From NCBI RefSeq assembly GCF_000023845.1, contig NC_013170.1:434001-498000 (forward strand): a stretch of DNA of 64,000 nucleotides, written 5' to 3'. Both the position numbers and the translations under genes were made by a program. The notes under the pieces are model-generated. The model ran no database searches. It had not been told where the DNA came from and saw nothing but the letters and a program-made list of their open reading frames with translations. Positions 8,801 through 13,773 of this stretch are shown here, one piece after another. Position 1 is the first letter of the stretch; each line of letters opens with the position of its first letter. The stretch is from Cryptobacterium curtum DSM 15641 (GTDB lineage Bacteria; Actinomycetota; Coriobacteriia; Coriobacteriales; Eggerthellaceae).

Positions 8801-9381
8801 AACCGTTCCGCGAGCCGATTACGGTAGGCTATCCCTATATGCTTAAGCTCGGCCACATGGTTGACGACAAGATTCATGCTCGCTCAACTGGTCCTTACAG
8901 CTTAATCACACAGCAACCGCTGGGCGGCAAGGCTCAGTTTGGTGGCCAGCGCTTCGGCGAAATGGAAGTGTGGGCGCTCTATGCCTACGGCGCATCGAAC
9001 GTGTTGCAGGAAATCCTGACGGTGAAGTCTGACGACACGGTTGGTCGCGTGAAGACATACGAGGCCATCGTGAAGGGCGAGAACATGCCCGATGCGGAAG
9101 TTCCCGAATCGTTCAAGGTGCTCATTAAGGAAATGCGTTCCCTGTGCTTGAATGTGGAGCTCGAAGGTCACAATAGGGAAGTGCTCGATGTGATTGAAAG
9201 CCATCCTGAACGGACGAACGACGACAATGTTCTTGCTGGTCTGGTTGAGGATGCACAGAAGACTGAACGCGAAGATGACGACATGATCGGCGACATTGCT
9301 GCCGAGCTGTCGAATCTCATCAGCGATGATTTGAAGGACGGCAATGACGGAAACGATCTCATCGGCGGAGAGGAGCGCTAA
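5845..9381 (+). CDS. rpoB: RNA polymerase beta subunit
   Basis: The full-length 1178-residue beta subunit has the normal domain order: protrusion and lobes, fork loop, catalytic DPBB region ([10 protein letters not shown]-type stretch [17 protein letters not shown]) and C-terminal clamp ([24 protein letters not shown]). The rifampicin-binding region starts at [13 protein letters not shown] and continues [13 protein letters not shown]. Residue 394 is Ala where E. coli has Asn518. Translation starts at GTG 5845 behind AAAGGAGG. rpoC begins immediately after the stop with no gap, so the two are translationally close and form one operon. The usual upstream partners rplJ and rplL are absent here; yacP is the neighbour. 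Transcription is probably driven by the promoter at 5761-5789. Confidence 0.98.
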
Positions 9382-12300
9382 ATGACCGAGTACGATGTAA
9401 ATAACTTCGACGCGCTGCGCATCTCTCTGGCGAGTGCGGAAGATATTCGCAGTTGGTCCCATGGCGAAGTCAAGAAGCCGGAGACCATTAATTACCGTAC
9501 GCTCAAGCCCGAAAAGGATGGCTTGTTCTGCGAACGCATCTTCGGTCCTACAAAGGACTGGGAATGCGCCTGCGGTAAGTACAAGCGCATTCGCTTCAAG
9601 GGCATCGTGTGCGAGCGCTGCGGTGTTGAAGTCACCAGGGCGAAGGTTCGCCGCGAGCGCATGGGTCACATTGAACTGGCTGCTCCGGTGAGTCACATCT
9701 GGTATTTCAAGGGCAGCCCAAGCCGTTTGGGGTACCTGCTTGATATTGCGCCAAAAGACCTTGAAAAGGTTCTCTACTTTGCAAGCGCTATTGTCACGTC
9801 GGTGGACAAAGAAGCGCGTGAAGAAGACGAAGCTGATCTGCGGGATGAATTAGCTGCTGACCTTGATGAACTCGATGCTGAACGCGATCGCCTGATTGCT
9901 TCAACCAGGCGTCTGTCGACCGATTACACGCCTGAAGACGACGAGTTTGTCGACGATATCGAAGACGAAGAGCGTCTGACCCCTGAAGAAGTTGAAGACG
10001 AACTAGCTGATATCTATGAGGAATTCAACGAGCGCAAGGCGCTGCGTAGTGAAGCGTTCGAAGCCTTCATGAAAATTGAACCCAAGCAGCTGGTTGCCGA
10101 TGAAACCCTCTATCGCGAAATGCGCCTGAACTACAGCGAGTATTTCAAGGGTGGCATGGGTGCTGAAGCAGTACGCGATCTGCTGGATGACATCGATCTT
10201 GACGAGGTAGCCGAGGAACTTTCCGAAATTATTGCAACGGGCAAGGGTCAAAAGCGCGCCAAAGCTGTTAAGCGTCTTAAAGTGGTTGACGCGTTCCTGA
10301 AGAGCGAAAATAAACCACACGACATGATTCTTGACGTGATTCCGGTTATTCCACCCGACCTGCGTCCAATGGTACAGCTCGATGGTGGTCGTTTTGCAAC
10401 AAGTGACTTAAACGATTTGTATCGTCGCGTTATTAACCGCAATAACCGCTTGCAGCGTCTGCTCGATCTGGGTGCGCCGGAGATTATTGTCAACAATGAA
10501 AAGCGCATGCTGCAAGAAGCTGTCGACAGTCTCTTTGACAATGGCCGCCGTGGCCGTCCAGTAACGGGTCCGGGAAACCGTGCGCTGAAGTCGCTTGCCG
10601 ATATGCTCAAAGGAAAGCAGGGGCGCTTCCGCCAGAACTTGCTGGGTAAGCGTGTCGACTATTCAGGTCGTTCAGTTATCGTGGTTGGTCCAGAACTGAA
10701 ACTGCATCAGTGCGGTCTGCCGAGTGCGATGGCGCTTGAGCTGTTCAAGCCATTCGTTATGAAGCGCCTGGTTGAACTCGAATATGCCGCTAATATCAAG
10801 GCTGCTAAACGAGCTGTTGACCGTGGGGCAAGCTACGTGTGGGACGTGCTTGAAGAGGTTATTACCGAACATCCCGTCCTGCTTAACCGTGCTCCAACCC
10901 TGCACCGTCTTGGCATTCAGGCATTTGAGCCTGTGCTGACAAACGGTAAGGCCATCAAGCTGCACCCGCTTGTTTGTACGGCATTTAACGCCGACTTTGA
11001 CGGCGACCAGATGGCAGTGCATGTACCGCTGTCCAGTGCCGCTCAGGCTGAAGCGCGCGTGCTGATGTTGTCCTCTAACAACATTAAGTCGCCAGCACAT
11101 GGCCGTCCGCTAACTATTCCGACTCAGGACATGATCATCGGTCTGTACTACCTGACGACGATTCGTGACGGGTTTGCCGGCGAAGGACGTGTCTTTGCGA
11201 GCTTCGACGATGTGCAGCATGCCTATGATGCACATGCTGATCTCGACTTGCAGGCACGTATTTCTGTGCGTCTGCCGCGCGACATGACGGTTGTTTCTTC
11301 TTATGGTCAGGCCAAGGAATGCAAAGCGGGCGAGCGTATCGAGACGAGTGCTGGGCGCGTTATTATCAACGATGTGTTGCCCGATGACTATCCGTTCCTT
11401 AACTACGAACTCGACAAGACCGAGGTCGGACGCCTGATCAGTGATTGCTCGAACCGTTATTCGACAGCTGCCATGGAGCCTATCTTGGACGGTCTCAAGA
11501 GCAACGGTTTCCACTACGCTACAAAGGCAGGTCTCACGGTGTCTATTTACGACGCCACAATTCCTGATGATAAGGATGAAATCCTCGCTGCGGCCGATGA
11601 AAAAGTAGCTGCGATTGATGGCGACTACGAAATGGGCTTGATGAGTGACGAAGAGCGCCATAAGCAGGTTGTCGACATTTGGACGGATGCAACTGAAGAA
11701 GTGGGCGAGGCTATGGCTTCTCACTTCAGCGGTCAGAACCCCATCTACATGATGGCTACCTCGGGCGCCCGCGGTAATATCAAGCAGATTCGTCAGCTGG
11801 CCGGTATGCGTGGTCTGATGGCTGACACGAAGGGTGAGATCATCGACACGCCGATTAAGGCAAACTTCCGTGAAGGTATGTCGGTACTCGAATACTTCCT
11901 ATCTTCGCATGGTGCTCGTAAGGGTTTGGCTGACACGGCACTGCGTACTGCTGACTCGGGTTATCTGACCCGTCGTTTGGTGGATGTTTCGCAGGATGTT
12001 ATCGTGCGTGAACTCGACTGCGGTACCACCGAAGGCGTGACGTATGCGCTGGTCGACAGCAAGGGCGAACTCGATGAAAATCTGGTTGGTCGGTGCCTGT
12101 CTGAAGATGTTTCTGATGCGTCTGGTACACGCTTAGCTTCCGCGGGTGACTACATCAACAGTATGGATGAACTCACTGCATGGCAGCAGGCAGGCGTTGA
12201 GGAAGTTACCATCCGCACCATCATGACCTGCCATGCCGAGCACGGCGTGTGCCAAAAGTGCTATGGCTGGGATCTTGCAACGGCTCGTCCGGTAAATATC

Positions 12301-13773
12301 GGTACAGCCGTGGGTATTATTGCTGCTCAGTCTATTGGCGAGCCGGGTACACAGCTGACGATGCGTACGTTCCACTCAGGCGGTGTCGCCGGCGACGACA
12401 TTACGCAGGGTCTTCCTCGTGTTGTCGAGCTGTTCGAGGCACGCAAGCCGAAGGGTCAGGCTGTCTTGGCCGAGATTGCTGGTACTTTGCAGATTTCAGG
12501 CGACAAGCAAACCAAGACAATCACTATTCACGATCAAGAAGGCAACTACCGCGAGTATGTCACTTCGGCACGCGTGCAGATGATGCCGGGTGTGGTAGAT
12601 GGTTCAGAAGTTACGGTTGGTCAGCAGATTACACGGGGTTCAGTGAACCCGCACGACTTACTGCGTCTGACCGACCCGAACACCACGCTGCGCTATATTG
12701 TGGGGCAAGTCCAAGATGTGTACGTCAGCCAAGGCGTCGACATCAACGACAAGCACATCGAAGTTATTGCGCGTCAGATGCTGCGTAAGGTGGCAGTGCT
12801 TGATTCTGGTGATTCCGATTATCTGCCGGGTCGTCAGGTCAATCGCTACGAATTCGAAGATGTTGCCAATCAGCTGGTGCTCGAAGGCAAACAGCCGCCC
12901 GTTGGTCAGCCGTTGTTGCTGGGCATTACGAAGGCATCGCTGGCAACCGATTCGTGGATGTCGGCCGCTTCGTTCCAGGAAACCACCAAGGTTCTTACCG
13001 ATGCAGCCATCGAAAGCAAGACCGATCAGCTGGTCGGCTTGAAAGAAAACGTTATTATCGGCAAGCCGATTCCTGCTGGTACGGGTCTCAAGCGCTATCG
13101 CAACGTGGGTCTTACTTATAAGGGTCACGCCGTGCATGAAATTACAAGCGACACGCTGCCTGATTATGCGCCTGAGGCGCTGCGCAAGGTTGAAGAACTC
13201 CTGCCGCAGCCGCAGGATTGGTCACTCGATGGTGATAGCTATCTGAACATGGGCGGTAGCTATTCGAGCTACTTCAATAGCCTTTCAGCTGGTCGTAATT
13301 CGCAGCTTTCCGATGAGGACGCACGCCTGTATATCTATGATGACCTGGGTGTCTCTCAACGCTGGGCGAATAAGTTCTCCGAAGCAGGTATTGAAACCGT
13401 GGGCGACCTTATTGGGTACTCCGAAGAAGACCTATTGCGTATCGAAGGCATCGGAGCAAAGGCGATCGAGGAACTCAAAGAGGGCTTAGAAAAGCACGAT
13501 TTGCTCCATATTATTGAGGACGACCTAAACGCCACGGGCGACGACATGAGTCAGCTTTTGGATATGGTGTTCTCGCCCGATGATACGATTCTCATTGGTG
13601 GTGATGTGCCGGCAACCTTCAACACGGAAGGCGAAGACATGCTCGGCGAAGCACTGCCACCGCGCTCGTATCAGCGCAATCTCGAAGAGCTTGATGCGAT
13701 TCTCGGCAATGTGGGCGATTTGAACCTGCATATCGATGAGTCTTCGACTGACGATTCGGAAAACGAGGAATAG
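9382..13773 (+). CDS. rpoC: RNA polymerase beta-prime subunit with an extra C-terminal domain
   Basis: The 1463-residue beta-prime subunit carries the N-terminal zinc site (Cys62, 64, 77, 80), the catalytic NADFDGD at 536-542, the trigger-loop region and the second zinc site around residues 880-970 (CGTTEGV ... [13 protein letters not shown]). The segment around 140-220 is highly acidic. After the conserved end of the subunit comes a helix-hairpin-helix stretch (about 1322-1373, with AGIETVGDL and [14 protein letters not shown]) that resembles the C-terminal domain of the alpha subunit, then an acidic tail of about 90 residues. ATG 9382 abuts the rpoB stop; a GGAGAGGAG ribosome-binding site lies inside the rpoB end. 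The extra domain is discussed in the findings. Confidence 0.98.

Follow-up and report, generated by a model that had tools for sequence, protein, structure and literature searches.

The beta-prime subunit (RpoC) of Cryptobacterium curtum almost certainly (about 0.97) carries at its C-terminus a genuine homologue of the C-terminal domain of RNA polymerase alpha (alpha CTD), which is classically the part of the bacterial enzyme contacted by promoter DNA and by activators. In the window, that is, the whole 64,000-nucleotide stretch that was analysed, rpoC is one open frame of 1463 residues on the + strand (9382..13773), with the RpoB frame immediately before it. The domain is assigned to the alpha CTD rather than to a NusA repeat because the sequence profile, the predicted fold and the family alignment agree. 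An assembly artefact or a fusion by frameshift was ruled out, since no stop interrupts the frame and 60 other RpoC tails of the class Coriobacteriia show this fusion too.

The frame matched the NCBIfam models TIGR02386 and NF011498 (PRK14906) and the Pfam Rpb1 domains 1-5. A linker of 85 residues (1236-1320, 13087..13341, +) runs from the end of the beta-prime core, IPAGTG at residue 1235, to the HMM-defined domain, and its length varied from 75 to 205 residues across 60 related tails. Comparison of the class tails identified within it a conserved segment of 17 residues (1259-1275, 13156..13206, +) that is present in tails both with and without the CTD-like domain, is partly invariant in alignment A1 and forms a helix in the AlphaFold model. 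The Pfam profile PF03118 (RNA_pol_A_CTD) matched residues 1320-1370 (13339..13491, +), and the structural extent of the domain, defined by model residues 81-152 which align to alpha CTDs, is 1310-1381 (13309..13524, +). The earlier note had placed the domain at 13342-13503, which corresponds in frame to residues 1321-1374.

PF03118 scored 39.2 bits against the whole RpoC protein and 43.6 bits against the tail alone (E=2.5e-11), with a cut-off of 23.8. When the genome, a single contig of 1,617,804 bases, was searched at E<=0.001, two proteins alone were recovered, RpoA with 99.8 bits and RpoC with 44.7 bits. RpoA is a separate frame of 321 residues with a normal CTD of its own, and 25 of 52 residues are identical between this CTD and the RpoC domain, which is attached to beta-prime and not to an alpha N-terminal (assembly) domain. 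The NCBIfam alpha-subunit models reached up to 39.7 bits on the RpoC tail; this falls short of cut-offs set for the whole protein, as it should for a single domain. A phmmer search of the PDB gave the Thermus alpha CTD (1doq) as the top match (E=2.5e-7); alpha subunits filled the first 51 of the 60 rows listed, down to E 0.18, and the first molecule of another kind among these rows was ribosomal eL32 at E 0.39. Furthermore, when profiles of 61 RpoC and 51 RpoA CTDs were compared by hhalign, the match covered all 52 columns with a probability of 97.9 and E=2.4e-12.

The possibility was considered that the domain is a generic helix-hairpin-helix or a NusA-type repeat with no particular relation to the alpha CTD. 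The HHH_5 profile does match the RpoC tail, scoring 27.6 bits on the tail alone (cut-off 27) and 22.8 bits on the whole protein, and in one tail of family f7 (L147) it scored slightly above PF03118, 27.0 against 24.0 bits (PF03118 cut-off 23.8). However, PF03118 leads HHH_5 by 16 bits on the RpoC tail and outscored it in three of the four other domain-bearing tails scanned, and the fold matches listed are alpha CTDs. The relation to NusA, which the earlier note had kept as its alternative, did not hold up, since nusA_Cterm_rpt (TIGR01954) gave 14.4 bits against a cut-off of 48.15; the repeat was rejected on this profile score, while the absence of NusA among the listed fold matches in itself excludes nothing. 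A generic or NusA-type origin is thus very unlikely. HHH_5 matched in six places in the genome, with the top score of 66.7 bits in a frame of 210 residues that reads as RuvA.

An AlphaFold2 model of RpoC residues 1230-1463 was built from an alignment of 15 rows, the window and 14 loci. The mean pLDDT was 58.7 and the pTM 0.29; 59 of the 234 residues lay between 70 and 90, and none reached 90. The block means in the domain were 68-79 (model residues 91-150) and 60 (81-90), a helix near model residues 31-50 had values of 70-74, and everything outside these blocks was lower, with block means of 40-55 over most of the acidic tail. Foldseek, with one row at E < 0.001, listed as its best 50 rows only alpha subunits or complexes containing them. 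The best Z score given by VIA-align 2 was 10.3 (8y5l_A2, rmsd 1.9, 67 residues); middling Z scores are common for helical models, and the weight rests on the agreement in family among the listed rows and on the sequence result. All 50 structural entries listed are RNA polymerase or alpha CTD by title, and residues about 239-337 of the matched chains align to RpoC 1310-1381, which is the outcome of the structure prediction and structural search that the earlier note had proposed. The alpha-CTD fold is therefore predicted with moderate confidence. Together with the PF03118 score and the hhalign probability, these matches bear out the proposal that RpoC carries a domain like the alpha CTD.

A PF03118 search of 119 class genomes gave two or more matches in 85, a single match in 32 and no match in 2. 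These counts are rough in both directions; G029, for example, has one match and yet carries the domain in its RpoC tail. RpoC was found in 116 of the 119 genomes, family f14 giving none. The tails examined numbered 81, comprising 80 from 79 class genomes and the window's own, and the alpha-CTD-like domain was present in 61 of them. It occurred in all tails from f1 (9), f2 (12), f3 (8), f4 (2), f6 (7), f7 (3), f8 (3), f9 (7), f11 (1), f12 (3), f13 (1) and f15 (1), and in four of five from f10. In 19 of the 20 tails lacking the domain (f5, 13; f16, 5; f17, 1), it is replaced by two CCCH zinc-finger-like repeats; DUF5763 and zf-TRM13 were above their cut-offs in the two of these 19 tails that were scanned. 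The CCCH-repeat tails are L152-L170, and the repeats also occur at loci L046 and L047. The one remaining domain-less tail belongs to an RpoC of actinomycete type, carried by a 6.8 kb contig in G040; this second RpoC in a class genome (L183, G040:C24) is probably contamination.

A further 80 RpoC loci with record titles (L032-L111) were examined. Among L032-L048, class members by title or tail, 14 have the domain, two (L046 and L047) carry the zinc repeats instead, and L039 breaks off inside the domain. On reading, the domain was absent from the 63 titled RpoC tails L049-L111, mostly Bacillota by title, with L074 running off its contig; the absence in Bacillota rests on those 63 tails.

Outside the class, the phylum sample comprised 296 genomes, 26 of them class members and 270 others. 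At least two PF03118 matches were found in 26 of the 270, and these genomes were searched again. In eight (L213-L220; G159, G289, G347, G310, G231, G280, G290, G300) the second match lies, on reading of the tails, in RpoC: three in f42 with 48-52 bits and five in f31 with 34-44 bits; the sample's remaining six f31 genomes gave a single match each. The RpoC domain of f42 has Tyr at the position of E. coli alpha R265 and keeps GQKSLEE; that of f31 keeps R and N, with K298/S299 changed to N/N or G/N. These fusions are weaker than, and perhaps separate from, that of the class. The RpoC end motif was not found in the second-match frames of G125, G359, G223, G177, G276 and G216; those of G223, G177 and G276 are 1437-1577 residues long, yet not RpoC. 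One of the two matches in G380 is a piece of RpoA, and the remaining 11 second matches were below the family cut-off. Among 118 genomes of the phylum of the armatimonadete G391, no RpoC was found among second matches in frames longer than 1000 residues; the only such frames, in G427 (2926 residues) and G433 (1097 residues), are neither of them RpoC. The nine genomes behind the named loci of other lineages had one match each over the cut-off.

A tree of 99 rows and 52 columns, with 41 of its 96 inner branches drawn open, gives no firm count of origins. The class RpoC label needs 2 changes on this tree, and in 54% of 200 bootstrap trees a single branch separates the class RpoC rows from the rest; the Thermus alpha lies among the RpoC rows and the two f42 RpoC domains lie on the RpoA side (99/77). 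Several other alpha-CTD-like segments were observed. The RpoA of G159 (L230, f42) has an apparent second, degenerate CTD-like segment just before the true CTD. In L226 (G216:C43, a 922-residue frame of f22) and L221 (G125:C10), the match lies beside stretches that read like sigma region 4 or something similar. L223, L224, L225 and L238, all long frames of kinase-like character, contain an alpha-CTD-like stretch and recall BREX PglW; the BREX PglW model matched the RpoC tail weakly, at 15.9 bits.

N268, G296, S299 and E302 of the alpha CTD are DNA-contact residues, in addition to those named below, and the domain also docks regulators; the residue numbers used here as labels are taken to be those of E. 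coli alpha. According to PMC5101437, the residues with which alpha CTDs may contact A/T-rich DNA upstream are R265, N294 and K298. A gapless pairing with E. coli alpha aligned R1327 with R265, N1330 with N268, K1331 with C269, G1356 with N294, G1358 with G296, K1360 with K298, A1361 with S299 and E1364 with E302. The earlier note had paired R1327, N1330, G1358 and K1360 in the same way and had correctly noted the replacement of S299 by Ala; its partner for E302, E1363, pairs instead with T301, and the claim of a conserved Glu survives because E1363 and E1364 are both Glu.

Conservation of these five positions among related RpoC proteins, which the earlier note had set as a test, was found for three of them and largely for a fourth. 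The equivalents of R265, G296 and E302 are kept in 61/61 class RpoC domains and that of K298 in most (52/61; otherwise Arg 2, Thr 6, Ala 1). N268 did not follow, being kept in 36/61 (otherwise Thr 14, Lys 8, others 3) and holding in only five of the 13 domain-bearing families (f1, f2, f3, f8 and f10). In f1-f3 the set of R265, N268, Lys at 269, G296, K298 and E302 is complete in 29/29. The N294 equivalent is Gly in 61/61 and the S299 equivalent Ala in 60/61. Residues specific to the RpoC domain are Gly for E261 (61/61), Trp for S266 (58/61) and Lys for C269 (57/61). For the 51 RpoA CTDs, by comparison, R265, N268, G296 and S299 are present in 51/51 and K298 and E302 in 49 each; 54 RpoA loci had been tried, L023, L227 and L230 were dropped for a wrong or cut segment, and two of the 51 are from f31. 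The mean net charge is -4.5 for the RpoC domain (range -7 to 0) and -0.9 for the RpoA CTD (range -2 to 1).

The mean identity of the f2 and f3 domains to that of the window was 79% and 83%, while the last 130 core residues of these proteins averaged 56-57% and the linker 39-48%. In f1, domain and core were about equal, at 86% and 88%, and in more distant families the domain was 38-60% and the core 51-72% identical to the window's protein. Judged by these identities, the domain is more strongly conserved than the end of the beta-prime core within the order, and not so across the class.

The acidic tail (residues 1375-1463, 13504..13770, +) contains 24 D+E and 2 K+R. Its description in the earlier note as an acidic tail of about 90 residues was accurate, and it also holds a conserved motif of 22 residues (1387-1408, 13540..13605, +), recognised by alignment and comparison of tails. 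In f1-f3, a conserved block S-Q-L-L-x-M-V-F-[SA]-P-[DE] follows the domain; in other families, a block D-V-S-x-F-x-G-x-x-F-D-P lies ahead of the domain or ahead of the zinc repeats. A profile of the latter was built from 41 of the 52 tails outside f1-f3, 11 being without the pattern used to pick seeds. At 5 bits or more it matched 10 of the 29 tails that follow the domain, against 7 of 2900 shuffled sequences. With the threshold at 8 bits, the counts were 2 of 29 and 1 of 2900; the top shuffled score, 8.6 bits, came close to the 9.2 bits of the best real tail. The resemblance between the two motifs is only suggestive, because the 29 tails are related to one another. Locus L040 has an intermediate form. 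If the link is right, domain and motif would have changed order, and the tail would not be mere acid. The end of RpoB, NDLIGGEER (window 9352-9378), resembles ILIGGD in the RpoC tail (13588-13605), and LIG strings of similar kind end the RpoB of some relatives.

The best reading of the domain, to which we give an even chance, is that of a beta-prime-tethered module that would contact DNA and/or promoter-bound proteins. The beta-prime C-terminus adjoins omega in known polymerases, and an omega-family match is present in the genome (PF01192, 31.1 bits, cut-off 26). Held next to this site on a linker of about 85 residues that is presumably flexible, the domain could reach upstream DNA or a protein bound there, and would constitute a third alpha-CTD-like module besides the two of the alpha dimer. 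Most likely it would work as the alpha CTD does, presenting the hairpin face formed by R1327, G1358, K1360 and E1364 to upstream promoter DNA, and/or dock sigma region 4 or a promoter-bound regulator, with a presumed effect on initiation. The suggestion that beta-prime bears an additional UP-element- or activator-binding module is plausible. According to PMC12369361, two-hybrid systems recruit polymerase by way of partners fused to alpha or to omega, and PMC9638019 reports an activator that acts through omega.

The kept R265/G296/K298/E302 face and the added Lys count in favor of promoter contact. The high identity of the f2 and f3 domains, 79% and 83% against 56-57% in the core, points to a domain well constrained within the order. 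Counting against promoter contact are the partial retention of N268, the changes of N294 to Gly and S299 to Ala, the net charge, the families f5, f16 and f17, which manage without the domain, its conservation outside the order, no better than that of the core, and the only moderate confidence of the predicted fold. Since the S299 and N294 equivalents, and often that of N268, are lost and the domain is acidic, any contact with DNA is probably weaker than that of the alpha CTD, differently specific or assisted by a partner.

The same losses and acidity are also what would be expected of an alpha-CTD homologue that has given up DNA binding and serves as a dock, whether for a lineage-specific regulator, for NusA/NusG, for a factor of the ribosome or for the acidic tail itself. 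The near-invariant W266 and K269, new on the first helix, fit such a role, as does the alpha CTD itself, which docks proteins; Spx complexes (1z3e, 3gfk) are among the structural matches. Together with G261, these residues suggest a partly different job. However, a pure dock does not obviously need R265, E302 and the GxG hairpin, which are invariant, or K298, which is mostly kept. The invariance of R265 in the class is the more telling because f42 shows that an appended domain can lose this residue. A protein dock is a real possibility, at well under even odds.

A structural or assembly element, packed on omega or on the base formed by beta-prime and alpha-II and stabilising the polymerase with no promoter role, appears improbable. 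The attachment of the domain where beta-prime meets omega would suit it, and a CCCH pair can replace the domain in f5, f16 and f17, as if the site tolerates different modules. The linker of 75-205 residues, however, is better suited to a mobile than to a packed domain, and most of the linker was modelled with low confidence. Promoter or activator contact remains the preferred reading. More tentatively, the beta-prime C-terminus in the class might be a socket for swappable modules that contact nucleic acid or regulators, an alpha-CTD copy in most sampled families and a CCCH pair in others. It would act as a third, asymmetric upstream arm that reads promoters or regulators unlike the two alpha CTDs and that, in the order of Cryptobacterium curtum, is tuned by the acidic tail.

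An extra conserved copy of the alpha CTD on the catalytic subunit could change how the polymerase finds promoters, and the promoter rules of E. coli may not carry over to the class, which has gut and oral members and carries the domain in most sampled families. The fusion is also a natural case of the relocation of a domain within an essential machine. It is already represented in databases: NF011498 (PRK14906), whose CDD title we take to be a beta-prime/alpha domain fusion, scored 3016.3 bits (cut-off 1437) and spans its positions 1-1459 of 1459, covering the protein to its last residues. No paper on the RpoC domain was found in the literature searched, which is weak evidence as most subscription journals lie outside its coverage. 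In a survey of beta and beta-prime insertions (PMC11515920), the strings 'coriobacteri' and 'fusion' are absent from the text, and the figure legends state that masking was applied to extensions at the termini, outside the shared core. The domain is apparently a known one in an unstudied place.

The RpoC domain resembles the alpha CTD (PF03118) in profile, predicted fold, length and the R265, G296, K298 and E302 positions, and in being a small domain joined to the polymerase core by a linker. Unlike the alpha CTD, it sits on beta-prime beside a normal RpoA CTD, has Gly for N294 and Ala for S299, has often lost N268, has a near-invariant Trp and Lys of its own, is more acidic and, in Cryptobacterium curtum, is followed by an acidic tail. 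The Thermus alpha CTD (1doq) also departs from Asn at position 268, where it has His, and has PGIG at the hairpin; however, it is part of alpha and keeps S299, and the RpoC domain differs in both respects. Among database models, the RpoC equivalog NF011498/PRK14906 represents the whole protein including the tail, and a match to it says nothing about what the domain does, how it is distributed or the zinc repeats that can take its place.
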